Shown here piece by piece: positions 33,703 through 46,514 of a DNA stretch of 50,032 nt. The notes beneath the pieces are model-generated. The model did no database searches. It was given only the letters and a program-made list of their open reading frames with translations, and was not told where the DNA came from. The position numbers were made by a program, and so were the translations under genes. Source of the stretch: Klebsiella pneumoniae. Lineage in GTDB: Bacteria > Desulfobacterota > Binatia > UBA12015. How positions within the stretch are numbered: the stretch's first letter is position 1; every line of letters starts with the position of its first letter. The DNA lies in assembly GCA_945872365.1 (NCBI GenBank), contig CAMBZJ010000023.1, forward strand, positions 1-50,032, read 5' to 3'.

Positions 33703-35481
33703 TCAGACCCGCGACATCAATAGTTCGCGCTGCAGGACGAGCGTCGGCGGCATGGTCGCCGCATGCTTCTCGAAGAGTTCCTTCTGCAGCTCGAATTCCT
33801 GCTTCCACTCCGCATGGTCGATCGCCATCGCCGCGTCGATCTGCGCCGGTGTCGCGTCGAGGCCGGTCGTATCGATCTGGCCCTTCTCCGGCACCCAGCC
33901 GAGCGCGGTCTCCTTTGCGGTGGCGCGGCCCTCCGCGCGATCGACGATCCACTTCAGCACCCGCATATTGTCGCCAAAGCCCGGCCACAGGAACTTGCCG
34001 TCCTTGTCCTGGCGGAACCAGTTGACCTGGAAGATCCGCGGCGGGTTGGGGATCTTGTGCTGCATGTCGAGCCAGTGCTGGAAATAGCGACCCATGTCGT
34101 AGCCGCAGAAGGGAAGCATGGCCATCGGGTCGCGGCGCACGACGCCGACCTGGCCGATGGCGGCCGCCGTGGTCTCGCTGCCCATCGTCGCACCGAGATA
34201 GACGCCGTGGGTCCAGTTGAAGCTCTCCAGCACCAGCGGGACCGTCGTCGAGCGACGACCTCCGAAGATGATCGCGGAGATCGGAACGCCCTGCGGGTCG
34301 TTCGCCTTGGGCGACAGCACCGGGTTGTTCGACATCGGCGCGGTGAAGCGACTGTTGGGGTGGGCGGCCTTCTCCTTGGAGCCCCGCTGCCAGGGGCGCC
34401 CCTGCCAGTCGGTGAGTTCGGCGGGCACCTCGCCGTCCATTCCCTCCCACCAGACGTCGCCGTCGGGCGTCAGGGCGACGTTGGTGAACAGCGTGTCGCG
34501 CTCGACGCAGCGCATGGCGTTGGGGTTCGACTTGTTGCTCGTGCCGGGGGCAACCCCGAAGTAGCCGGCTTCCGGATTGATCGCCCAGAGTCGACCGTCC
34601 GTGCCCACGCGCATCCAGGAAATATCGTCGCCGACCGTCCAGATCTTCCAGCCCTTGTACTGCGCGGGCGGGATCAGCATCGCGAAGTTCGTCTTGCCGC
34701 AGGCCGACGGGAACGCGGCGGCGACGTAGGTCGTCTCGCCCTGGGGGTTCTCGACGCCGAGGATGAGCATGTGCTCGGCGAGCCACCCCTCGGTTCGGCC
34801 GAGGTAGGAGCCGATGCGAAGCGCGAGGCACTTCTTGCCGAGCAGCACGTTGCCGCCGTAGCCGCTGCCGGTGGACCAGATCGTGTTGTCCTCGGGGAAG
34901 TGGCAGATGAAGCGCTTCTCGGGGTCGAGGTCGAGGGTCGAGTGCAGTCCGCGGTTGAAGTCGTTCGAATCGCCGAGCATATCGAGCGCCGCCGTGCCCA
35001 TGCGCGTCATGATGCGCATGTTCAGCACCACGTAGGCGCTGTCCGTGAGTTCGACGCCGATCTTCGCCATCGGCGAGCCGACCGGGCCCATCGCGTATGG
35101 AATCACGTACATGGTGCGGCCCTTCATGCAGCCGGCGAAGAGCTTGCCGAGCTTGCCGTAGGCCTCCTTCGGATCCATCCAGTTGTTGTTCGGACCCGCC
35201 TCGACCTTTGAGCGCGTGCAGATGAAGGTGAGGTGCTCGACGCGTGCGACGTCGTTCGGATTGGAGCGGTGGAGGTAGCAACCGGGACGCTTGCGCTGGT
35301 CGAGCGGGATCAGGATGCCTTGGTCGACCGCCTCCTGCGTGAAGCAGGCCCGCTCCGCCTCCGAGCCGTCGCACCAGTGGATGCGATCGGGCTGGGTGAG
35401 CTTCGCCATGTCGGCGACCCAGGCCTCGAGATGGGGGTTGCGGACCGAGGGAGTGGTGGCTTGGGCTGGCGGATTGCTCAT
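33703..35481 (-). CDS. pckG: phosphoenolpyruvate carboxykinase (GTP)
   Basis: This 592-residue GTP-dependent PEPCK makes phosphoenolpyruvate from oxaloacetate for gluconeogenesis. Motifs are [24 protein letters not shown] at the N-terminus, the [18 protein letters not shown] lysine/nucleotide region, and the P-loop-like [12 protein letters not shown] with the reactive Cys261. The C-terminal part has [20 protein letters not shown]. Length and motif order match the GTP type, not the ATP type (pckA). Its own promoter was not found; TetR lies 129 bases upstream on the same strand, so partial co-transcription is possible. Confidence 0.96.
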
Positions 35482-35610
35482 GCGCGCTCGTCCTTGGCGT
35501 CTGGCACGACGTCCTGCTCTCGACCGTGGATTGCTGCCGGGGACCCGGCGGATTGGTCCCTCGCTATAACGTCCTGATCCATCCGGGGCCAGCGATCATT
35601 AGCGCAGCCG

Positions 35611-36330
35611 CTATAGCCGCGGGTTGGTCGGCCCGTCTCCGCGCAGGAAAGTTCGCCTGACCACCCGGAGGAACCCTTCGAGGAGATCCTCGCGCGAGCC
35701 CTTCATGCCGGTGGCCACCCAGTGCGAGAGGTGGGCCTGGTCGATCCCGGTGAACAGGACCGAGAGATAGGCCGGGTTCTCGTCGATGAAGACCCGGGCC
35801 GCCACGCCCCGGGCGAAGATCCCCGCCTGGAGGTCGTGGATGCGCTGTGAAAGCGCCCGTCGCTCCGCGTCGCTGCCTGGCTCGAGAGCCCAGGAGGCGC
35901 CGGTGCGGATGTGCATGCGCAGGAAGTCGGGGTGGGCGAAGAAGTACGTCACATAGGCCCGCGAGAGCGCTTCGAGGGTGGCCACCGGGTCGGCCTCGTC
36001 GGCGACCACGGCCGCGACCAGGTCGCGCAACTCCCCGCCCCGGCGCTCGACGAGCGACTGGAACAAGTGCTCCTTGCTCGGAAAGATGGCGTAGATGGAG
36101 CCCATCGACAGTTCCGCCTTGCGGGAGATGTCCTGGACCTTGGCCGACTCGAAGCCCTGCTCGGCGAAGACGGCTTCGGCCGCGATCAGGATGTGCTCCC
36201 GGTAGAGGCTCTCCCGCGCTAGGCGGGCTACCTCTCGCGGGCCGTCGCCCGGCTTCGCGCGCCGGCTCCGTGCCGGCCCCGGGCGCCCCCGGGCGGCGGG
36301 TGCGCGAGCGGTCGTGCGAGGCCCGGCCAT
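35611..36330 (-). CDS. TetR-family transcriptional regulator
   Basis: The 239-residue protein begins with a long basic tail, then a TetR helix-turn-helix: ILIAAEAVFAEQGFESAKVQDISRKAELSMGSIYAIFPSKEHLFQSLVERR at about residues 45-95. A C-terminal ligand-binding domain of variable sequence follows. The start ATG 36330 fits this domain layout. An extended -10 promoter (TGC-TAGGTT) lies only a few bases upstream, so the message may be nearly leaderless. It is divergent from a four-gene oxidative operon. A perfect palindrome between them is the probable operator, and the regulator is likely both self-controlled and the local repressor. Confidence 0.88.
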   Translation of the reverse strand: MAGPRTTARAPAARGRPGPARSRRAKPGDGPREVARLARESLYREHILIAAEAVFAEQGFESAKVQDISRKAELSMGSIYAIFPSKEHLFQSLVERRGGELRDLVAAVVADEADPVATLEALSRAYVTYFFAHPDFLRMHIRTGASWALEPGSDAERRALSQRIHDLQAGIFARGVAARVFIDENPAYLSVLFTGIDQAHLSHWVATGMKGSREDLLEGFLRVVRRTFLRGDGPTNPRL

Positions 36331-36340
36331 CGAAGCGGCG

Positions 36341-36369
36341 AACCTAGCATTGGCGATTTCGATTGACAA
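36341..36369 (-). promoter_or_regulatory. promoter of the TetR gene
   Basis: On the minus strand, TTGTCA (36369-36364) and, 17 bases on, TAGGTT (36346-36341) preceded by TGC form an extended -10 promoter. Its -35 box overlaps that of the divergent promoter. Confidence 0.55.
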
Positions 36370-36390
36370 GTCGAGTTTCCGAATGATAAT
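36363..36390 (+). promoter_or_regulatory. promoter of the LLM-ALDH-ADH-amidohydrolase operon
   Basis: TTGACA at 36363-36368, 16 bases, GATAAT at 36385-36390 (5 of 6). It is about 65 bases before the first gene of the operon. Confidence 0.75.
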
Positions 36391-36394
36391 TCGG
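36379..36394. promoter_or_regulatory. perfect palindromic operator candidate (TetR site)
   Basis: CCGAAT-GATA-ATTCGG is a perfect inverted repeat that covers the -10 box of the divergent operon. This is the classical position for repression by steric block. The size of each half (6 bases with a 4-base centre) is within the range of TetR-family operators. Confidence 0.7.
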
Positions 36395-36454
36395 TAATTC
36401 TGTTTCAAGGCCACTGCTCGGCGCCGGCCGAGCCTGCGGATCGGAGAATCGACC

Positions 36455-37576
36455 ATGGAGTTCGGCATTTTCTCGCAGATGCACGTCCCGCCCGGCGAGG
36501 ACGAACACAGCCGCTTCCTGCGCGAGGTGGACGTCGCCATCGCGACCGATGCTGCGGGCTTCAAGTACAACTGGGCGCCGGAGCACCACTTCCTGGAGAA
36601 CTATTCCCACCAGCCGGCTCCGGAGGTCTTCCTTTCCTTCATCGCGGCGCGGGCGCCGCGCATCCACGTGGGCCACGCGATCGTGAACATCACGGCAGCC
36701 GTGAACCACCCGGCGCGCGTCGCCGAGCGCATCGCGACCCTCGATCACCTGACCGAAGGTCGGGTCGAGTTCGGCACCGGTCGTGGCTCGTCGTCGGCCG
36801 AGTGGGGCGGATTCGCCATCCCCGATGCGCCGATCACCAAGGATATGTGGCAGGAGTCGATCGAGCAGATCCCGCGGATGTGGAGCGACGAGCCCTACGA
36901 GTACGAGGGGCGGTTCTTTCGCATGCCCAACCGCAACGTGCTGCCCAAGCCGTTCTCCAAGCCGAACCCGCCGATTTGGCTCGCCTGCGCGAGTCCGCCG
37001 ACCTTCGCCATGGCCGGCGAGATGGGACTCGGGGCGCTCTGCTTCGTGAACGGCACGATGGACGACATCCGCCCGCTCGTGAAGGCCTACAAGGACGGCA
37101 TCGCGCGCTGCAAGAAGCCGGTCGGCGGATTCGTGAACGACAACATCGCGGTGACGAGCCAGATGTTCTGCCTCGAGGACGGCGACGAGGCCCGCCACCA
37201 CTTCAGCAAGGCGAAGACCGGGAAGTTTCTGGAGTTCTTCTTCAAGTGGCTCGACTCGGTGCCGCGCCCCAAGGGAATGCCGGCGACCGGACCGGTCACG
37301 ATCCCCGAGCCGACCGTCGCGGCGCTCGAGCAGCGCACCAAGGCCGGCGGCTACATGATCGGCTCGCCCGAAGAGGTCGCCTCGTCGATCCAGCAGTACG
37401 AGGAACTCGGCGTGGACCAGCTCATCTACGCGCCGCTCACGATGGTGATGGACCAGAAGCTCGTGCTCAAGTCGGTCGAGACCTTCGGCAAGCATGTCCT
37501 GCCGCGCTTCGACAAGGACCCGGTGCACCGCACGCGCCGGCTGCGCGAGGCGGCCCTCGCGTCGCGGGCGGCCTGA
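36455..37576 (+). CDS. luciferase-like flavin monooxygenase
   Basis: This 373-residue protein of the bacterial-luciferase (LLM) fold has EFGIFSQMHVPPGED at the start, the EHHF barrel segment, RVGHAIVNI-type strand VGHAIVNITAAVNHPARVAERIATLDHLTEGRVEFGTGRG, and the C-terminal IGSPEEVASSIQQYEELGVDQLIYA. LLM enzymes use reduced FMN (or F420) and oxygen to hydroxylate or split ketones and aldehydes, alkanes or aromatics. The substrate is not predictable. It is the first gene of the operon, 65 bases after a TetR-controlled promoter, and is likely the committing oxygenase. A GGAG site precedes ATG 36455. Confidence 0.88.
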   Translation: MEFGIFSQMHVPPGEDEHSRFLREVDVAIATDAAGFKYNWAPEHHFLENYSHQPAPEVFLSFIAARAPRIHVGHAIVNITAAVNHPARVAERIATLDHLTEGRVEFGTGRGSSSAEWGGFAIPDAPITKDMWQESIEQIPRMWSDEPYEYEGRFFRMPNRNVLPKPFSKPNPPIWLACASPPTFAMAGEMGLGALCFVNGTMDDIRPLVKAYKDGIARCKKPVGGFVNDNIAVTSQMFCLEDGDEARHHFSKAKTGKFLEFFFKWLDSVPRPKGMPATGPVTIPEPTVAALEQRTKAGGYMIGSPEEVASSIQQYEELGVDQLIYAPLTMVMDQKLVLKSVETFGKHVLPRFDKDPVHRTRRLREAALASRAA

Positions 37577-37604
37577 GGCGCCTCCCGCGCCGAACCCCGA
37601 GCCG

Positions 37605-39080
37605 ATGGCCCCGAGCGTGCCCGTCTTCGACCGCGTCCTGATCGGAGGCGAGTGGGTGCCCGCCGAGCGGGGAACCTACGACATCGTGAACCCGGCGACC
37701 GAGGAGGTCGCCGGACGGGCCCCGGAGTGCTCGACCGCGCAAGTGGCCGCCGCGGCGCGCGCAGCGCGCCGTGCCTTCGAGCAGGGGCCTTGGCGTTCGA
37801 TGACCGGGGCCGAGCGCGGCGCCTGTCTGCGCGATGCCGCGGAGAGGTTTCGCAAGGCGATCCCCGGTCTCGTCGATCTCACCGTGGCGGAGACCGGGGC
37901 CCTGCGGCCCATCGCGGAACGGCTGCAGGTCGCCGAGGTCGTGCAGCGGCTCGCGAAGTATGCCGATCTCGCCACCGCCCCGGTCGAGCAGGGCCTGCCG
38001 CCGCTCGAGCGGGCGGGTGTCGCCGGTGGGCCGGCGACGGTCGCTTCCGGATTCGTCGTGCGCGAGCCGGTCGGCGTCGTCGCCTGCATCAGCCCCTTCA
38101 ACTTCCCGATGACGAACTGTGCGGGCAAGATCGCGCCGGCGCTCGCCTGCGGGAACACCGTGGTCGTCAAGCCGCCGCCGATCGACCCGATGGGCGTCAT
38201 CGAGCTGACCCGCATCGTCGCCTCGGCGTTGCCGCCGGGGGTCGTCAACCTTGTGTCGGGAGCCGGCCCGGAGATCGGGGAGGCGCTCGTCGCCTCGCCC
38301 GACGTCGACATGATCTCCTTTACCGGCAGCACCGCGGTCGGCGAACGTATCGAGGAGGTCGCGGCGCGCGGGCTGAAGCGCACGCTCCAGGAACTCGGCG
38401 GCAAGTCGGCGAACCTGGTCTTCGCGGACTGCGACGTCGAGAAGGCGTTGCGCAGCTCGATGAGCGTCTGGACGTTTCACTCCGGGCAGATCTGCATCGC
38501 ACCGACGCGCCTGCTGGTCGAGGCGTCGATCTACGACGAGTTCACGACGCGCATGGCGAAGGCGGCCCCGGCTCTCAGGATCGGCGATCCGAACGAGCCC
38601 GGGGTGGTGCTCGGGCCGCTCGTCTCGCGGGCGCAGCTCGAGCGGGTGGAGCGCTACGTGGCGCTCGGGCTCTCCGAGGGCGCGCACCTCGCGTGCGGCG
38701 GGCGGCGGCCGGCGCAGCCCGCCCGCGGCTTCTACTTCGAGCCCACGCTCTTCACCGGCGTGCGCAACGACATGCGGATCGCGCGCGAGGAGATCTTCGG
38801 CCCTGTGATCGCGGCGATTCCGTTCCGCGACGAGGCGGAGGCGATCGCACTCGCCAACGACTCAGACTTCGGACTCTACGGCTACGTCTGGACCAAGGAC
38901 GCCGGCAAGGCGCTGCGGGTCGCGCGCTCCCTGCGCACCGGCACGGTCCAGATCAACGGCAGCCCCCCGAATCCCGACGCGCCCTTCGGCGGCTTCAAGC
39001 GCAGCGGTATCGGCCGCGACGGCGGGGCTTTCGCCCTTCAGACCTACACCGAGATGAAGTACATCGGCTGGACAGCGTGA
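37605..39080 (+). CDS. aldehyde dehydrogenase (NAD(P)-dependent)
   Basis: This 491-residue aldehyde dehydrogenase oxidises an aldehyde to a carboxylate. It contains the general-base Glu263 in LQELGGKSANLV and catalytic Cys297 in FHSGQICIAPTRL. The cofactor-domain FTGSTAVGERI is also present, and the C-terminal GGFKRSGIGRDGG is typical. ATG 37605 is chosen from the family N-terminus (VFDRVLIGGEWVPAERG), as the in-frame codons upstream lie inside the previous gene. It is 28 bases after the monooxygenase gene. It is expected to remove an aldehyde produced by the monooxygenase or the alcohol dehydrogenase. Confidence 0.94.
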   Translation: MAPSVPVFDRVLIGGEWVPAERGTYDIVNPATEEVAGRAPECSTAQVAAAARAARRAFEQGPWRSMTGAERGACLRDAAERFRKAIPGLVDLTVAETGALRPIAERLQVAEVVQRLAKYADLATAPVEQGLPPLERAGVAGGPATVASGFVVREPVGVVACISPFNFPMTNCAGKIAPALACGNTVVVKPPPIDPMGVIELTRIVASALPPGVVNLVSGAGPEIGEALVASPDVDMISFTGSTAVGERIEEVAARGLKRTLQELGGKSANLVFADCDVEKALRSSMSVWTFHSGQICIAPTRLLVEASIYDEFTTRMAKAAPALRIGDPNEPGVVLGPLVSRAQLERVERYVALGLSEGAHLACGGRRPAQPARGFYFEPTLFTGVRNDMRIAREEIFGPVIAAIPFRDEAEAIALANDSDFGLYGYVWTKDAGKALRVARSLRTGTVQINGSPPNPDAPFGGFKRSGIGRDGGAFALQTYTEMKYIGWTA

Positions 39081-39105
39081 GCCGGTCCCGCGCAGCGAGG
39101 AATCC

Positions 39106-40179
39106 TTGAAGGCAGCCGTCTTCCACGAAGTGGGCAAACCCGTGTCGGTCGAGGACGTTTCCGTCCGCGCTCCCGGCGAAGGCGAGGTTCTGGTCGCGAT
39201 CCGCGCCGCCGGCCTGTGCCATTCGGACGTGAGCGCGATCAACGGCACCTACCCGACACCGCGTCCCACCGTGATGGGGCACGAGGGCGCGGGCATCGTC
39301 GAGGCCGTCGGGCCGGGCGTCCGTACCTTGAAGGAGGGCGACGCGGTCGTCCTCTCGACGCTCGCCCACTGCGGTCAGTGCCCGGAGTGCGACGTCGGCC
39401 ACCCGACGATGTGTTGGAACGCCCCGCGGCCCTCCACGCCGTTCACGGTCGGCGGCAAGCCAGCCTGGAACTTCGCGAACGCCTCCACGTTCTCCGAACG
39501 CACAGTGGTGCGCGCTTCGAGCGCGATCAGGATCCCGGCGCGGATGCCCATGCCCCAGGCGGCCCTCATCGGTTGCGGGATCATCACCGGGGTGGGCGCG
39601 GTGCTGAATCGGGCGAAGGTCGAGGCCGGCCGCACGATGGCGGTCTTCGGCACCGGCGGCATTGGGCTCAACGTCATCCAGGGCGGCGTCCTGGCGGGTG
39701 CGGGGCGGATCATCGCCGTGGACCTCGTGCCGGCCAAACTCGACTGGGCCCGTCGTTTCGGCGCGACCGACGTCGTCGACGCACGGGAAGTCGATCCGGT
39801 CCTGGCGATCAAGGACCTCACCGGCGGACGCGGCGTGGACTACGCCTTCGAGGCGGTCGGCCACCTCAAGGCCATCGAGCAGGCGTTTGCCTCGCTCGCG
39901 CCCGGGGGTAGTCTCGTCATCGTGGGTGTGCCGAAACTCGATGCCCGCGCCGATTTTCTCGTGAACGCACTCCGCCTCGACCGTGCGATCCTCGGCTGCC
40001 GCTACGGCACGGCGAGGCCGCAGAACGACTTCCCCATGCTCGCTGAACTCTATCTCGGCGGGCGCCTCAAGATCGACGAACTCATCACGCGGCAATACGC
40101 ACTCGACGACGTCAATCACGCGATCGAGGACCTCGAAAAAGGCGAACTCGCGCGCGGCGTGTTCGACATGACCGCCTAG
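39106..40179 (+). CDS. zinc-dependent alcohol dehydrogenase
   Basis: This 357-residue medium-chain alcohol dehydrogenase has complete zinc sites. The catalytic zinc is bound by Cys38, His59-Glu60 and Cys157. The structural zinc site is Cys89, Cys92, Cys95 and Cys103 (C-x2-C-x2-C-x7-C). The Rossmann motif is GTGGIG (182-187). The family with an intact structural zinc and an IGCGIITGVGA segment includes class III-like and mycothiol- or NDMA-linked alcohol dehydrogenases. The start is TTG 39106, preceded by GAGGAATCC. It lies between aldehyde dehydrogenase and amidohydrolase genes and likely interconverts the alcohol and aldehyde of the pathway substrate. Confidence 0.92.
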   Translation: MKAAVFHEVGKPVSVEDVSVRAPGEGEVLVAIRAAGLCHSDVSAINGTYPTPRPTVMGHEGAGIVEAVGPGVRTLKEGDAVVLSTLAHCGQCPECDVGHPTMCWNAPRPSTPFTVGGKPAWNFANASTFSERTVVRASSAIRIPARMPMPQAALIGCGIITGVGAVLNRAKVEAGRTMAVFGTGGIGLNVIQGGVLAGAGRIIAVDLVPAKLDWARRFGATDVVDAREVDPVLAIKDLTGGRGVDYAFEAVGHLKAIEQAFASLAPGGSLVIVGVPKLDARADFLVNALRLDRAILGCRYGTARPQNDFPMLAELYLGGRLKIDELITRQYALDDVNHAIEDLEKGELARGVFDMTA

Positions 40180-40209
40180 AAGGCTCTTCGAAAAGCCAGG
40201 GAGAAGACG

Positions 40210-41268
40210 ATGGGACGCTTCAACTACCAGGTGATCGATGCGGACGGCCACGGCGGCGAGTTCGCCAACTGGCAGGAGACCGTCGGCGAGAAGTGGATGC
40301 CGACGCTCGCCGCGTATCGCGAGAAGATCAAGAAGCATTACAGCCGGTTGCCGATCCCCGGGGGCGGCCAGTCGCGCCCGGGCGACAAGTTCGACATCCG
40401 TCCGGGCATGAACGACCCGCAGAAGCGGCTCGAGGACTTGGACCTCGAGGGCATCGACATGACGATCACCTTCCCCGGCGGCGCCGGAGAAGAGTGGGCG
40501 ATGCTCGACCCCCAGTTCTCGCTCGCGCTCTGCCAGGCGGTGAACAACTCGAAGGCTGCGTTCTCCAAGCAGTGCAACGGCCGCGTGTTCGGGGTCGCAA
40601 AGCTGCCGATGATCGACCCGCCGACGGCCGCCAAGGAGCTGCGTCGGGCCATCACCGAACTCGGCCTCAAGGGCATGGTCTGCACGCAGCACGTACGCGA
40701 CAAGAACCTCGACCATCCCGACTTCGACGTCGTCTGGGCGGAGGCCGAGCGGCTGAATATTCCCGTCTGCGTCCACGGCGGCGGGCAGGCGCCCGACCAG
40801 TACCCGGTCTGCGTGGACCGCTTCAACACGCGACTCGAGGTCCACGCGATCACCCACCCGGTCGGCAACATGATCGCCCTCGACTCCTTCTGCGTCGGCG
40901 GGATCTTCGAGCGCTTCCCGAAGCTCCGGGTCGCCTTCATGGAGTCCGGCTGCGGCTGGCTGCCGTTCTGGCTGTGGCGGCTCGACGAGCACTACGAGAA
41001 GATGCCGGAGCAGGCACCGAACATCCGTCGCAAGCCGAGCGAGTACTTCCACTCGAATTGCTGGATCTCCTGCGATCCCGACGAGAAGATGATTCCCGAG
41101 GTCGTCAAGCTCTGCGGCGACGAGCGGATTCTCTACGCCTCGGACTACTACCACTGGGACTGCGCCTTCCCGGAGACGGTCAAGTTCATCGTCGATCGCA
41201 ACGACCTCTCCGAGGCCACCAAGCAGCGCATCCTCGGCGGCAACGCGAAGAAGTTCTTCGCGCTCTGA
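40210..41268 (+). CDS. amidohydrolase-2 family protein
   Basis: This 352-residue TIM-barrel protein is related to the ACMSD/amidohydrolase_2 group. The N-terminal motif VIDADGHGGEFANW has the Asp-x-x-His type of metal site. Further conserved parts are VCVHGGGQAPD, HPVGNMIALDSF, FMESGCGWLPFWLWRLDEHYEK and the C-terminal ILYASDYYHWDCAFPE. Similar proteins hydrolyse or decarboxylate aromatic or ring-cleavage products. ATG 40210 follows AGGGAGAAG. It is the last gene of the TetR-linked operon, before a strong terminator stem. The product would be a small acid feeding central metabolism. Confidence 0.86.
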   Translation: MGRFNYQVIDADGHGGEFANWQETVGEKWMPTLAAYREKIKKHYSRLPIPGGGQSRPGDKFDIRPGMNDPQKRLEDLDLEGIDMTITFPGGAGEEWAMLDPQFSLALCQAVNNSKAAFSKQCNGRVFGVAKLPMIDPPTAAKELRRAITELGLKGMVCTQHVRDKNLDHPDFDVVWAEAERLNIPVCVHGGGQAPDQYPVCVDRFNTRLEVHAITHPVGNMIALDSFCVGGIFERFPKLRVAFMESGCGWLPFWLWRLDEHYEKMPEQAPNIRRKPSEYFHSNCWISCDPDEKMIPEVVKLCGDERILYASDYYHWDCAFPETVKFIVDRNDLSEATKQRILGGNAKKFFAL

Positions 41269-41289
41269 GCAGTTCCCAAGGAAAGCACG

Positions 41290-41326
41290 GGGGGTCTCCG
41301 GGCATGAGCCGGGCCCGGAGACCCCC
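41290..41326. terminator. 14-bp terminator stem between convergent genes
   Basis: GGGGGTCTCCGGGC pairs perfectly with GCCCGGAGACCCCC around a nine-base loop. It lies 22 bases after the amidohydrolase stop and 40 bases from the stop of the convergent acyltransferase gene, so it can serve both strands. No U-tract follows. Confidence 0.7.
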
Positions 41327-41365
41327 GCGGTTGGCGAACCTCGAGGCCTGAGACGTTCCGAGGGG

Positions 41366-42199
41366 TCAGCCGTTCGACGGAGCCGCCCCGTCGCGCCGGA
41401 CGAGGTTTCCCGGGATGTGCTGGCCCAGGTCGACGTAACTCTGGCGGGCGAGCTCGACGAGTTCGTTCTCGATCTCGACCGTGAAGCGCTCGAGTCCGTC
41501 TTCCGTGGCAGCGCTCGCCGGCACCTCGAAGGGGCCCCGAAGGTAGTAGCGGATCACGTTGAAGGGCAGGGGGACGGCCATCCGGTCCCAGGTCGGGAGC
41601 CGCAGGCAGCGCTTGTACCAGGTGCGAGCGAGGATGATCGGGCGGTCGCATTCCCGGGCGATCACGACCCCGCCGGTCTTCATGCGGTAGGCCGGTCCCT
41701 TCGAGCCGTCCACCGTGATGCCGTAGATCACGCGGCGATGGCTGCGCATGTGGTCGATCATGTCGCGCAGCACGCCCTCGCGACGCCTCGACTTGCCGGT
41801 CGTCGATCCGCCGCGGAAGACGACGAAGCCGCACATCGCGAGCATCCGGGCGATGAGATCGCCCGACTCGCCGAGGCTCGCGAGCGTCTGCGCGGGGAAA
41901 CCGACCCAGCAGTAACCGAAGGCGACGGTCATCACCTCCTCGTGCCAGAGAAGTCCGACCGCGCCGTCGCGGTCCTCGATGATCGAGCGCAGGCGGGCGA
42001 ACTCGTCGATGCCCTCGACCCGGCTCGTGCTCCAGACGAACCGCATGTACCCCATGTAGAGGTGCGGGACCAAGATGGTCGCCAGTCGAGAGAGCCGCCG
42101 CGAGAAGACCGGCCGGATGCGCTCGCGCCAGAAGTTCGCGACCGGACCGCGCTGTCGTGGCGGGCGTCGTCGCGCCGTCGGATCCGGTGCCTCGTCCAT
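41366..42199 (-). CDS. DUF374/lysophospholipid-acyltransferase-like protein
   Basis: The 277-residue protein matches the DUF374 acyltransferase family: LLWHEEVMTVAFGY near the start (H-x4-D-like site as WHEE), VVFRGGSTTGKSRRREGVLRDMI and GITVDGSKGPAYRMKTGGVVIAREC. The N-terminal half has a hydrophobic region at about residues 40-55. DUF374 members are inner-membrane-associated enzymes that transfer acyl groups, some to lipid A-related lipids, but the substrate here is unknown. The start is ATG 42199. It lies downstream of a carotenoid-oxygenase gene on the same strand, about 55 bases away. Confidence 0.85.
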   Translation of the reverse strand: MDEAPDPTARRRPPRQRGPVANFWRERIRPVFSRRLSRLATILVPHLYMGYMRFVWSTSRVEGIDEFARLRSIIEDRDGAVGLLWHEEVMTVAFGYCWVGFPAQTLASLGESGDLIARMLAMCGFVVFRGGSTTGKSRRREGVLRDMIDHMRSHRRVIYGITVDGSKGPAYRMKTGGVVIARECDRPIILARTWYKRCLRLPTWDRMAVPLPFNVIRYYLRGPFEVPASAATEDGLERFTVEIENELVELARQSYVDLGQHIPGNLVRRDGAAPSNG

Positions 42200-42254
42200 C
42201 GTTCGTCTCGCCGGGGCCGGATCGAAGGCCGGACCCGGCGGGGTCGCCGTTTCC

Positions 42255-43748
42255 CTAAGCGCCGCCCCCCGGTACCCAGACCCCGTGGAAACCGTAGGGA
42301 ATGCGCCGTGGCAATTCGATCTCGGCCACCGGGCCGCCGTTCAGATCGAGGGCGGGCAGGATCGCGAGCGTGCTGCGACCGTCGCGATGGTCGTAGACGT
42401 AAGTGAACAGCCAGCCGTTTCCCTCGCCCTCGCCGCCCGGCACGAAGAAGGGCTCGCCCGCGTGCCGGGTCGCGCCGGGATCCCAGAGCGACACCCGCCC
42501 GGTCTCGTAGTCGATGCAGCCGGTTCCGCCGAAGTCGACGGTGTTCGGGTTCGTGCGGGTCACCGAGTACCAGCCGTAGCGGTGGCGGCGCCCGGTGAAA
42601 CGCCGGTCGCCCTGGGGCAGTTCGAAGGGCTCGGTGGTGACGACTTCGTCCCGGAAGCTCATCGGGCTGCTACCGGTATCGATGCGCCAGCGCCGCAGGT
42701 CGCCCTGGCTGTCCTTCAGGTCGTCGTTCGTGAACATGTCGGGGTGGCGGCAGACGTCGACGACCACCTCGTTGCCGTCGCGGTAGGCGTTGAGCGAGTG
42801 GAACACGTAGCAGTTCTCGATCTCGACCCAGCGGATGTCCGAGGTGCGGCCGCCGAGCGGCATGATGCCGACGCGGGTGCCGTAGTCGGGCTGCCAGTGG
42901 AACGGGTTCAGCGCGCCGGCGATCGCGTCGTCGAGCGAGAAGAGCACCGGGCACTCCCAGAAGACGACGTCGCGCTCGGTGATCGCGAAGGAGTGCATCA
43001 TGGTGGTCGCGCGAACGTCGACCTTCTCGCTCGAGATCACCCGGCCGCTCGCGTCGGCGACCGAGTAGGTGAGAAAGGGGTCGAAGAACCAGTAGCCGAA
43101 GTAGTGCAGGTGCCCGGTCGTCGGGTCGACCTGGGGGTGTGCGGTGAAGGAGGTCTTCAGGCGCCCACCGAAGTCGTAGACGCCCTTGGTCGACAAGTCC
43201 CTCGGGTCGATCTCGTAGGGAAAGCCGACCTCGCCCGACGTCAGCAGCTTCCCGCCGTGCCAGATGGTGCTCACGTTGCTCTGGTTCGCACCGCCGACCG
43301 GCGGCGTGCTTGGGTCGCCGAAGCTGATGCCCTGCTGGTAGAGCAGCGTCTGGACGTAGCGGTTGCGATACCAGAGCGCCTTGCCGTCGGCGATGCGCAC
43401 GCCGTGGATCATGCCGTCGCCGAAGAACCAGTGCGGCGAATCCGCCTTCTGCGGGTTTGACCCGTTGCGCACGTAGAGGCCGTCGAGTCCGGCAGGGATG
43501 CGGCCGCGGATGCGCAGGTCGAAGGCGTCGATTTCGTCGGCGACCGGCGCGTAGTCGGCCTGGAGCCACCAGGGCCTCGCCGGATCATGGGCCTCGACGG
43601 CCGAGCCGCTCGACGTGTCGCCGCACGCGGCCATCAGCCCCGAGGGCAGGGCTACGCCGGCCGCGAGCAGCGCCGAATGCTGCAGGAAGGCCCTGCGCCC
43701 GAGAGGCGGGCCAGGGAGCGGGGCGTTGAATCTGGGGCTGCGCTGCAT
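42255..43748 (-). CDS. Tat-exported carotenoid-oxygenase family lipoprotein
   Basis: This is a 497-residue carotenoid cleavage oxygenase of the beta-propeller fold. All four iron-binding histidines are present: His204 (TAHPQ), His252 (MMHSF), His317 (VFHSL) and His488 (GFHGVW). The first 42 residues contain a twin-Arg motif (GRRAFLQ) and a hydrophobic core. They end LMAAC-GD, a Tat signal and probable lipoprotein anchor at Cys42. Most such enzymes are cytosolic, so a membrane or periplasmic location is notable. Possible substrates are carotenoids or, as in related enzymes, stilbenes. ATG 43748 is preceded by GGAGG. It is divergent from rnr. Confidence 0.86.
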   Translation of the reverse strand: MQRSPRFNAPLPGPPLGRRAFLQHSALLAAGVALPSGLMAACGDTSSGSAVEAHDPARPWWLQADYAPVADEIDAFDLRIRGRIPAGLDGLYVRNGSNPQKADSPHWFFGDGMIHGVRIADGKALWYRNRYVQTLLYQQGISFGDPSTPPVGGANQSNVSTIWHGGKLLTSGEVGFPYEIDPRDLSTKGVYDFGGRLKTSFTAHPQVDPTTGHLHYFGYWFFDPFLTYSVADASGRVISSEKVDVRATTMMHSFAITERDVVFWECPVLFSLDDAIAGALNPFHWQPDYGTRVGIMPLGGRTSDIRWVEIENCYVFHSLNAYRDGNEVVVDVCRHPDMFTNDDLKDSQGDLRRWRIDTGSSPMSFRDEVVTTEPFELPQGDRRFTGRRHRYGWYSVTRTNPNTVDFGGTGCIDYETGRVSLWDPGATRHAGEPFFVPGGEGEGNGWLFTYVYDHRDGRSTLAILPALDLNGGPVAEIELPRRIPYGFHGVWVPGGGA

Positions 43749-44000
43749 CGAAGACCTCCGTGTCCGTTTCCGTCGGCGTCCCGCAGGTGGGACCGGCGCA
43801 AGATCGGCCGAGGTGCCGGCCCCTGTCAAGCCGGAGGATTCCCGGGGCGTCTGGCGGCTGCGTCGCCGGCGCCGGCAGCAGGGCGGCTGGGCGGTGCCCC
43901 GTGCGCCTTCGGCCTGCCCGCTCGGAGGGTCGCGCTCGATAGCCCACCCGTGCCGACCTGCGCGTCGCGAATGCGATGGACGGTTGCTAGGAAGCGACGC

Positions 44001-46514
44001 ATGCGGCCGCCGCGCGCATCCGATCCCCCCGCGGTCGCCATGCTCGCCGTTCTCGAGCGGGCGGCGCCGCGACCGCTCTCGCTGCGCGAGATCGCCGAGA
44101 GGCTGGGGCTCGAGCGCTTCGATCCGCGTCTCCTGCAGGCGGGGCTCGACGTGCAGGTCGCCGAACGTCGGCTGCGTCGCATCGGCAAGAACCGCTACCA
44201 GTGGCTCGCCGAGCGCCTGCCGCGGGACCGAGGCGGCTTCGTCCCCGATCGGGGCGTTCGTCCGCGGGGTGACGCCCTGCGTGCCGACCGCGACCGGGTC
44301 GATCGCCGGCGGGTCGCCCCCGCCGATCCCGCCGGGCCCCGCGGCCGGATCGAGCGTCGGGGGCCGATCGCCCCGGCCGCCGCCGCCGGTCCGGCCGCGC
44401 CTTCGGTGACCGGGCGCTACTCTCGGGTGAGAGCGGGCTTCGGTTTCGTCGCGCCCGAGGGGGCAGCGCGGGAGCGCTTCCCGACCGACGTGTTCGTGCC
44501 CGAGGGGATGGAGGGGAGCGCGCTGCACGGCGACCGGGTCCGGGTCGAGGTGCTGCGCCTCGATCCCGGCACGTCGCGTGCGAGCGGCCGCATCGCCGAG
44601 GTCGTCGAGTCGGGCGTCGACCGCGTGATTGGCGTCCTGGAGAATGGACGGCACGGAAGTGCCGCGGAGCCGGCGGCGCGCCGCGCGCGTCGTGCGGCGC
44701 GACCCGGTCCCGAACCGGAGCGCCGCTGGTGGCTAGCCCCGCAGAGCGACCTGCTGCCGGTGGTGTCGATCGAAGGCGGTATGGAACCGAGCGCCTTCGA
44801 TGCGGGAAAACTCGCGGTGGTGCGGCTGACGCGCCGCCCCGGTCCCGTGCGCGGTGCGGCCGGCGAACTTGAGCAGGTGCTCGGCGATGCCGAGGATCCC
44901 GACGTGCAGTTTCTCACGATCGCGCTCGAGCACGGACTGCGGATCGACTTTCCGCCGGAGGTCGAGGCGGAGTGCTCCGGTCTCCCGGCCGACCCGCACC
45001 CCGAGGACCTGCGCGACCGCGAGGACCTGCGCGACCTGCCCTTCGTCACGATCGACGGCGAGAGCGCGCGCGACTTCGACGACGCGGTCTGCCTCGAACC
45101 CGCGCCCGGCGGCGCCCACCGGCTGCGGGTGGCGATCGCGGACGTGGCGCACCACGTCCGGCCCGGCAGCGCGCTCGACGCCGAGGCTCGTGCGCGCGGA
45201 ACCAGCGTCTACTTCCCCGACCGTGCGATCCCGATGCTGCCGGAGGCCCTCTCGAACGGCCTGTGCTCCCTCGTGCCGGGCCGCGACCGGCTGGTCCTGG
45301 TCGCCGACCTGCTGCTCGACCGGCGCGGTCTCAGGAAATCCGCGCGCTTCCACCGCGGCGTGATTCGCAGCCGTGCACGCCTCACCTACGGCCAAGTCGC
45401 GGCGGTCCTGTCCTCGACCGACACCCGGGAAATCGAGGAGCAGCGCGAGGCGCTCGCCGACCTGCTGCCGCAACTGCAGCGGATGCGCGACCTGATGCGC
45501 GTCCTCTACCGCCGTCGCATCGACGCCGGCTCGCTCGACCTCGACCTGCCCGAAGCGCTCGTCGACCTCTCGGAGGAAGGACGCAGCGTCGGCGTGCGCC
45601 TCTCGGTGCGCAACGACGCGCACCGGATCATCGAGGAGATGATGCTCGAGGCGAACCAGGCGGTCGCCCTCCACCTCGGCGAGGCGGGCCTGCCGTTCCC
45701 CTACCGGATCCACGAGCCTCCCGACGCAGTCGACGTCGTCGAGTTGAACGAACTGCTGGGCGCTTTCGGGGCGAGCGTCGAGTTCGACGAGGAGGCGGGG
45801 CCACGCCCACGCGACGTGCAGCGCGCGCTCGTCGCGCTCGACGGCCACCGGCTCTCGCGCGTGCTTTCCCGGCAGGTGCTGCGCACGCTCAAGCAGGCGG
45901 AATACTCGACCGTGAACCGCGGGCACTTCGGGCTCGCGTTCGCGACCTATTGCCACTTCACCTCGCCGATCCGCCGCTACCCGGACCTGTTGGTGCACCG
46001 TCAACTCGGAGCGCTGCTCGACGGAGCGGCCGAGGACGCACGCGGGCTCGGTGCCGAGATGGCGGAGAGCGCTCGCACGAGTTCCGAGCGGGAGCGCGCG
46101 GCCGTGGCCGCCGAGCGCGCCATGCTCGATCTGAAGAAGGCCGAGTTCATGCTCGACCACCTGCTCGAACCGGCGGATGCGACCGTCGTCTCCGTCGCCC
46201 GGGCGGGGGCCTGGGCGGAACTCGACGCCTGGCCGATCGAGGGCCGCATCGACACGGAACGGCTCCCGGAACCCTTCGAATTCGATCCGCGCAGCCGCGC
46301 CCTCGTCGGCGTGCGCACCGGGGCGCGCCTGCGGCTCGGCGACCGGCTGCGCGTCGAGGCGACCGACGTCTCCCTGCGCCGCCGTCGGATCGGCTTCGCC
46401 GTGCTCGAGCACCTAGGGCCGCCGGGCGGGATCGAAGGCGCCGGGCCATCCGAGCAGGGCCGCGGCGGCGTGCGGCGGCGCGCCGGGCGACGCCAAGCCG
46501 GCCGAGGGCGTTGA
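44001..46514 (+). CDS. rnr: ribonuclease R (3'-5' exoribonuclease)
   Basis: This 837-residue RNase R has an N-terminal winged-helix-like part (LSLREIAERLGLERF), a basic linker, a cold-shock-like domain (GRYSRVRAGFGFVAPEG), the RNB catalytic domain and an S1 domain. The active-site acids are in GESARDFDDAV (Asp358-Ala362), and RIHEPPD and YCHFTSPIRRYPDLLVHRQLG mark the RNB core. It degrades structured RNA. ATG 44001 (MRPPRASD) follows AGGAAG at a good distance; ATG 43971 is an alternative without a ribosome site. The long Arg/Pro linker after residue 70 is richer than in many RNase R proteins. Confidence 0.93.
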   Translation: MRPPRASDPPAVAMLAVLERAAPRPLSLREIAERLGLERFDPRLLQAGLDVQVAERRLRRIGKNRYQWLAERLPRDRGGFVPDRGVRPRGDALRADRDRVDRRRVAPADPAGPRGRIERRGPIAPAAAAGPAAPSVTGRYSRVRAGFGFVAPEGAARERFPTDVFVPEGMEGSALHGDRVRVEVLRLDPGTSRASGRIAEVVESGVDRVIGVLENGRHGSAAEPAARRARRAARPGPEPERRWWLAPQSDLLPVVSIEGGMEPSAFDAGKLAVVRLTRRPGPVRGAAGELEQVLGDAEDPDVQFLTIALEHGLRIDFPPEVEAECSGLPADPHPEDLRDREDLRDLPFVTIDGESARDFDDAVCLEPAPGGAHRLRVAIADVAHHVRPGSALDAEARARGTSVYFPDRAIPMLPEALSNGLCSLVPGRDRLVLVADLLLDRRGLRKSARFHRGVIRSRARLTYGQVAAVLSSTDTREIEEQREALADLLPQLQRMRDLMRVLYRRRIDAGSLDLDLPEALVDLSEEGRSVGVRLSVRNDAHRIIEEMMLEANQAVALHLGEAGLPFPYRIHEPPDAVDVVELNELLGAFGASVEFDEEAGPRPRDVQRALVALDGHRLSRVLSRQVLRTLKQAEYSTVNRGHFGLAFATYCHFTSPIRRYPDLLVHRQLGALLDGAAEDARGLGAEMAESARTSSERERAAVAAERAMLDLKKAEFMLDHLLEPADATVVSVARAGAWAELDAWPIEGRIDTERLPEPFEFDPRSRALVGVRTGARLRLGDRLRVEATDVSLRRRRIGFAVLEHLGPPGGIEGAGPSEQGRGGVRRRAGRRQAGRGR

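Follow-up and report, generated by a model that had tools for sequence, protein, structure and literature searches.

A gene row kept across the Binatia, probably a TetR-controlled catabolic operon, encodes a luciferase-like monooxygenase and a candidate dinuclear metal enzyme of family PF04909

The DNA stretch analyzed here (the window; positions 1 to 50,032 of contig CAMBZJ010000023.1, assembly GCA_945872365.1, 50,032 nucleotides, placed by GTDB in the class Binatia, a little-studied lineage) carries a TetR-family regulator gene divergent from four ORFs encoding a luciferase-like flavin monooxygenase (LLM), an aldehyde dehydrogenase (ALDH), a zinc-containing medium-chain alcohol dehydrogenase (ADH), and an 'amidohydrolase' of family PF04909. 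This gene row is probably a widely kept catabolic operon for small-molecule breakdown under TetR control. At a probability of roughly 60%, we favor a dedicated catabolic operon with local TetR control, in which the LLM and the PF04909 protein would insert oxygen and the ADH and ALDH would carry the product on to an acid.

Results

The operon and its relatives

The tetR gene occupies 35611 to 36330 on the minus strand (PF00440, 6.7e-13, 48.6 bits against a cut-off of 24; its start codon is uncertain). On the plus strand follow the ORFs encoding LLM at 36455 to 37576 (PF00296, Bac_luciferase, 7.1e-48), ALDH at 37605 to 39080 (PF00171, Aldedh, 5.5e-154), ADH with a TTG start at 39106 to 40179 (PF08240/PF00107, ADH_N/ADH_zinc_N), and the PF04909 (Amidohydro_2) protein at 40210 to 41268, a candidate dinuclear (Fe2 or Mn/Fe) oxygenase judging by Pfam and its ligand residues. 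Gaps between the four genes are 28, 25, and 30 bp, and the zinc motif CxxCxxC...C was read in the ADH sequence. An initial annotation of the bare DNA had described this divergent arrangement of tetR and four enzyme genes; ORFs and Pfam agree with it, relatives keep it, and as a regulatory layout it is ordinary.

Relatives of the LLM, at 62 to 92% identity, were encoded in 17 of 57 related genomes besides the own genome (G000). We fetched 19 relative loci and one paralogue locus of the own genome, several of them cut by contig or fetch ends. The gene order, which the initial annotation had proposed seeking elsewhere, recurred: at 16 of the 19 loci, a TetR gene (product 42 to 73% identical to the window TetR) stood next to the row in divergent orientation, the exceptions being the paralogue cassettes G004b and G057b and the G019 locus, which a contig end truncates. 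LLM was followed directly by ALDH in 17 loci, ADH occurred in 16, and 15 had the PF04909 gene. Two LLM genes, in G019 and G052 (loci L055 and L056), were split over two frames, which may reflect a pseudogene or an assembly error. The paralogue cassettes (L042:6476-11107 and L053:6082-9477) read LLM-PF04909-PF04909 without a TetR relative, and that in L042 is followed by a cytochrome P450.

While the family to which the window belongs has the short gene row, rows elsewhere in the class are up to four genes longer. An Amidohydro_3 protein was encoded between ALDH and ADH in seven loci (Pfam was run on L052 only), and a PF04199 cyclase gene lay upstream in five (Pfam on L045). Downstream, eight loci carried a gene for an isochorismatase-like protein and eight a short-chain dehydrogenase/reductase (SDR) gene, seven having both, and a CoA ligase gene was found in six, namely that of G020 and five whose products share 64 to 78% identity with it; Pfam assignments of these three gene types rest on L043. 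The own genome has a further LLM gene (product 53% identical) that diverges from a CoA ligase gene, the product of which shares 63% identity with the G020 ligase. The suggestion that the four enzymes make a logical oxidation route is incomplete: the longer rows also encode two more hydrolases (a second amidohydrolase and an isochorismatase-like one) as well as an SDR and a CoA ligase, three relatives (G007, G012, and G011) have no PF04909 gene at the operon place, and G008 has no monooxygenase gene there.

Among plasmid records, 1176 had relatives of the LLM and 394 relatives of the PF04909 protein, all below 60% identity. The window gene order was absent from the four plasmid LLM neighborhoods opened: one lay between polyketide synthases, one had no annotated genes there, one was near two AMP-binding proteins and an acyl-CoA dehydrogenase, and one was on plasmid pNL2.

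The fourth enzyme

The initial annotation named the fourth enzyme an amidohydrolase; that it is an ordinary one is not supported. Its residues match the dinuclear oxygenases of PF04909 instead of the decarboxylases ACMSD and 5-carboxyvanillate decarboxylase (LigW), which falls short of proof. The dinuclear site of the oxygenase AibH2 is formed by D25, H27, H211, E265, D337, and H340, and conservation of a further acidic residue, D342, is described as confined to binuclear members (PMC7782822). The predicted ligands of the window protein are D12, H14, H189, E245, D312, and H315, with D317 in the second shell. H189, E245, D312, H315, and D317 align with H211, E265, D337, H340, and D342 of AibH2 in a HMMER alignment of the ortholog in L052 to the AibH2 chain, which starts at query residue 65, and D12 and H14 fall on the D-x-H motif of PtmU3 and 8sm9. 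The D317 position, acidic and two residues after the last histidine, corresponds to D342 in AibH2 and E313 in PtmU3. All seven residues were invariant in 16 of 16 aligned sequences, including the window protein and two from the paralogue cassettes, whereas in ACMSD and LigW the positions of E245, H315, and D317 hold different amino acids, the E, the final H, and the final D all being absent. The family profile ranked the oxygenase entries 8sm7, 8sm9, and PtmU3 first, at 106.7 bits versus 97.4 for the mononuclear PF04909 enzymes. As judged from these alignments, the protein is a candidate O2-using enzyme, most likely with a dinuclear metal site as in AibH2/PtmU3, and less likely a hydrolase.

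The main alternative keeps the same regulation and makes the PF04909 protein a mononuclear metal hydrolase or decarboxylase that acts after the oxidative steps and removes an amide or carboxyl group, for example in ring-opening catabolism of N-heterocycles. We regard this as possible, and several observations pull away from the oxygenase assignment toward it or leave the choice undecided. Used alone, the window sequence was slightly closer to ACMSD (97.0 bits), its best single-sequence match, than to the best oxygenase (90.7 bits). Structure comparison of the PF04909 protein model (mean predicted local distance difference test score, pLDDT, 81.5; residues 49 to 60 and 194 to 214 below 50) confirmed the PF04909 fold, with a Z score of 33.9 to SfbO over 322 residues at a root-mean-square deviation of 2.7. 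The Z scores were nonetheless tied between the two groups (SfbO 33.9, AibH2 33.6, PtmU3 33.4, ACMSD 33.4), and the order given by Foldseek itself places decarboxylases first. The longer gene rows hold other hydrolases, namely the Amidohydro_3 and isochorismatase-like proteins. A Rieske protein is encoded next to 90% of AibH2-like oxygenases (PMC10401708), a typical though not strictly defining trait; no Rieske motif (CxH...CxxH) was found in 21 loci by a scan that recovered the annotated Rieske gene of L092; the own genome has three Rieske matches, all on other contigs.

Paralogues further weaken the diagnostic value of the signature. From 6 to 37 matches to the window PF04909 protein were found per genome in six genomes, and in a sample of 20 (all five further G000 matches and fifteen better-scoring ones from G007, G008, G011, and G012) the six ligands were present in 20 of 20 and the acidic residue in 18 of 20. 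Being this common, the signature marks either an expansion of oxygenases or a broader trait. As for the three relatives in which the operon lacks the gene, G011 has a PF04909 copy elsewhere (80% identity), and the best-scoring matches in G007 and G012 are only 33% identical. Against the hydrolase or decarboxylase assignment stand E245, H315, and D317, invariant in all 16 sequences and different in ACMSD and LigW.

The monooxygenase and its cofactor

The LLM family profile was nearest to RslO1 and other luciferase-type monooxygenases, at 127.7 bits versus at most 65.8 for F420 enzymes, and the LLM model (mean pLDDT 84.5) gave a Z score of 33.0 to luciferase-type monooxygenases versus at most 28.3 to F420 enzymes. 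Luciferase-type monooxygenases use FMN. As both profile and model are nearest to these enzymes, reduced FMN (FMNH2) is a more likely cofactor for the LLM than F420, at the level of modeled likeness. A point on the other side is that no flavin reductase is encoded among the four operon genes, although two-component FMN monooxygenases of the LLM type frequently, if not by strict definition, have one in their operon; one Flavin_Reduct gene lies on another contig of the own genome (G000:C11). It is unlikely that the LLM protein is instead an F420-dependent oxidoreductase and no oxygenase: F420 synthesis, marked by CofG (TIGR03550), scored above cut-off in 55 of 58 genomes, the own included, but the lower scores of F420 enzymes in both comparisons speak against it.

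A single conserved operator

The perfect palindrome CCGAAT-GATA-ATTCGG reported in the initial annotation lies at 36379 to 36394 and is the predicted TetR site. As had been claimed, it covers the operon -10 box, GATAAT at 36385 to 36390 (plus strand), which was located by promoter scan together with the -35 box TTGACA at 36363 to 36368 (plus strand). This promoter, TTGACA-16-GATAAT, has 11 of 12 consensus matches and was the sole sigma-70-like match in 34000 to 43000 (1 versus 0.5 expected from shuffles). The operator is embedded in a 22-bp near-palindrome at 36376 to 36397, whose 9-bp arms have one mismatch in the window and are perfect in G003 and G007. Overlapping -35 boxes of the two promoters also stood up: a probable tetR -35 box, TTGTCA at 36364 to 36369 (minus strand), is recognized from the sequence and has the five bases 36364 to 36368 in common with TTGACA. 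Taken alone, the palindrome is not significant, another with longer arms (7 bp) lying in the same stretch of 248 bases. We consider it real and not chance because it is conserved at a fixed position across the divergent regions.

Eighteen divergent regions (the window, 16 relatives, and L062), picked through their genes and not through the pattern, were compared. The pattern TTGACA-11-CGAATGNTARTTCG was present in 18 of 18 divergent TetR regions. Since the pattern was written from these regions, genome scans are the fairer test of where the site occurs. The exact 14-mer occurred in 18 of 58 genomes, one copy each and every time beside operon genes; the own genome had one exact copy and a single one-mismatch copy (G000:C18:2687-2700). 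Across 148 genomes of the class it occurred in 27, again one copy each, with 22 sites at the operon and five, away from the operon, having no operon gene match in the 2 to 3 kb of sequence compared (L096, L097, L098, L103, and L104). TTGACA stood at the fixed distance at 22 of 22 operon sites, in contrast to 0 of the 5 others. In the column table of the 22 operon sites, in which the 14-mer is invariant by construction and TTGACA is not, the A completing TTGTCA was kept in 21, and the tetR -10 box was weakly conserved, single columns being kept at 14 to 16 of 22. G008 (L088) keeps TetR, operator, and ALDH; its site lies between TetR and ALDH because no LLM gene intervenes.

Two results count on the negative side. 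A reversed control pattern matched 24 times across this set of 148 genomes, so that 27 sites as such are no enrichment; it is the place and context of the sites that stand out. In addition, L099, one of the 22 operon loci, has the site and an LLM gene, and no TetR was detectable in its 3 kb. This locus, which retains the block, would suit a palindrome that is merely part of a strong promoter, with TetR acting elsewhere, as would the -10 box inside the conserved block, given that promoters of conserved operons can themselves be conserved. We hold that explanation to be very unlikely: the arms CGAAT/ATTCG extend past the -10 box and were kept in 18 of 18 divergent regions, they grow to a perfect 9 bp in two genomes, and no other palindrome was common to the regions among the best four listed for each. 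On sequence grounds, the pattern fits a local TetR repressor with a single site, that is, a predicted one-site regulon.

Dehydrogenases, transcript end, and flanking genes

The best NCBIfam matches of the ADH and ALDH were TIGR03989 (313.3 bits) and TIGR04284 (419.7 bits), which we take to be mycofactocin-associated families. A role in mycofactocin-linked alcohol oxidation was rejected as next to negligible, both scores being far under the curated cut-offs of 440 and 775 and MftC (TIGR03962) being above cut-off in 0 of 58 genomes, in a search without a positive control, as 14 control genomes were equally negative.

The 14-bp terminator said to end the unit was borne out in part. At 41290 to 41326 (plus strand), a 14-bp stem without mismatches closes a 9-base loop; this hairpin is a possible terminator, but it has no T-run and was not listed by the terminator scan of the window. 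Other strong inverted repeats, judged by eye and unfolded, lie 3' of the last gene in four relatives of the same family. A transcript end near this hairpin is plausible from the sequence.

Beyond it, a DUF374 (PF04028) protein is encoded at 41366 to 42199 on the minus strand, convergent with the operon. Two genes past the operon, at 42255 to 44654 on the minus strand, lies an ORF encoding an RPE65-family (carotenoid-cleavage-oxygenase-like) protein (PF03055, 1.4e-116).

Discussion

From the computed gene content, operator conservation and uniqueness, and ligand conservation, we infer DNA binding, co-transcription, cofactor, substrate, and the order of steps in the favored scheme, in which the LLM and PF04909 proteins act as oxygen-inserting enzymes. 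Without inducer, a TetR dimer would sit on the palindrome that holds the operon -10 box and block RNA polymerase, and it probably damps its own promoter too because both -35 boxes overlap. A growth substrate or metabolite would bind TetR, and the repressor would leave the DNA. Upon derepression, the four genes would be co-transcribed, with the transcript ending near the hairpin. The LLM would draw on reduced flavin, most probably FMNH2 made by a reductase encoded elsewhere. Both it and the PF04909 protein, the latter most likely a dinuclear metal enzyme that activates oxygen, would oxygenate a small organic compound. The alcohol and aldehyde thereby exposed would be carried on to an acid by the zinc ADH and the ALDH. 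The CoA ligase, hydrolases, and SDR in the gene rows of other families suggest that the acid continues as a CoA thioester.

Parts of this gene set resemble known systems. RslO1, LuxA, and 3,6-diketocamphane monooxygenase belong to PF00296 like the window LLM and are its nearest solved relatives; identity to luciferase-type monooxygenases is about 19 to 24%, and with none of the 25 NCBIfam models listed did the LLM reach the curated cut-off. The Rut pyrimidine pathway combines an LLM, RutA, with the isochorismatase-like RutB. A comparable pairing occurs in the longer rows of the class, but the RutA match was weak, the RutB model was far under cut-off, and a gene for an isochorismatase-like protein is missing from the window operon. 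Arthrobacter sp. 68b reportedly has a pyridine pathway that includes an LLM, an amidohydrolase, and an ALDH; this possible precedent was not found in the literature searched. Plasmid pNL2 of Novosphingobium aromaticivorans encodes a distant LLM (29.9%) and, inside 9 kb of it, an adenylate-forming enzyme, an SDR, and an amidohydrolase, along with a Rieske-domain protein and an amidase, but the order differs from that of the window, other genes intervene, and no ADH or ALDH is annotated there.

For the fourth enzyme, the closest parallels are AibH1H2, PtmU3, and SfbO, the dinuclear PF04909 oxygenases, which are alike in fold, ligand residues, and the extra acidic residue (PMC7782822, PMC10811679, PMC10401708). 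The window protein, whose likeness to them is known from sequence and model, is only 20 to 24% identical, has no Rieske motif nearby, and has LLM, ADH, and ALDH as neighbors. In the 4-hydroxypyridine catabolism of Arthrobacter sp. IN13, a flavin monooxygenase acts with an 'amidohydrolase' reported as a dioxygenase (KpiA-KpiC; PMC7356986). KpiC is placed in PF01979 and the window protein in PF04909; the likeness is one of description. The terms 'luciferase' and 'amidohydrolase' occurred 0 times in the main text of the Binatota genome paper (PMC8262859). The statement in the initial annotation that no described pathway has this exact set holds insofar as no relevant description of the gene set was found in the literature, within a search of narrow terms that covered few subscription papers.

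If both oxygenase assignments are combined, a flavin oxygenase would share one substrate with a Rieske-free TIM-barrel oxygenase that carries a dinuclear (Fe2 or Mn/Fe) site, and the PF04909 'amidohydrolases' of the class would have turned into a large oxygenase family; we offer this broader proposal tentatively and rate it as somewhat doubtful. The operator provides a handle for finding the substrate, with one repressor, one site, and one operon. If the PF04909 protein is indeed an oxygenase, automatic annotation may hide many O2-using enzymes of uncultured bacteria as hydrolases.

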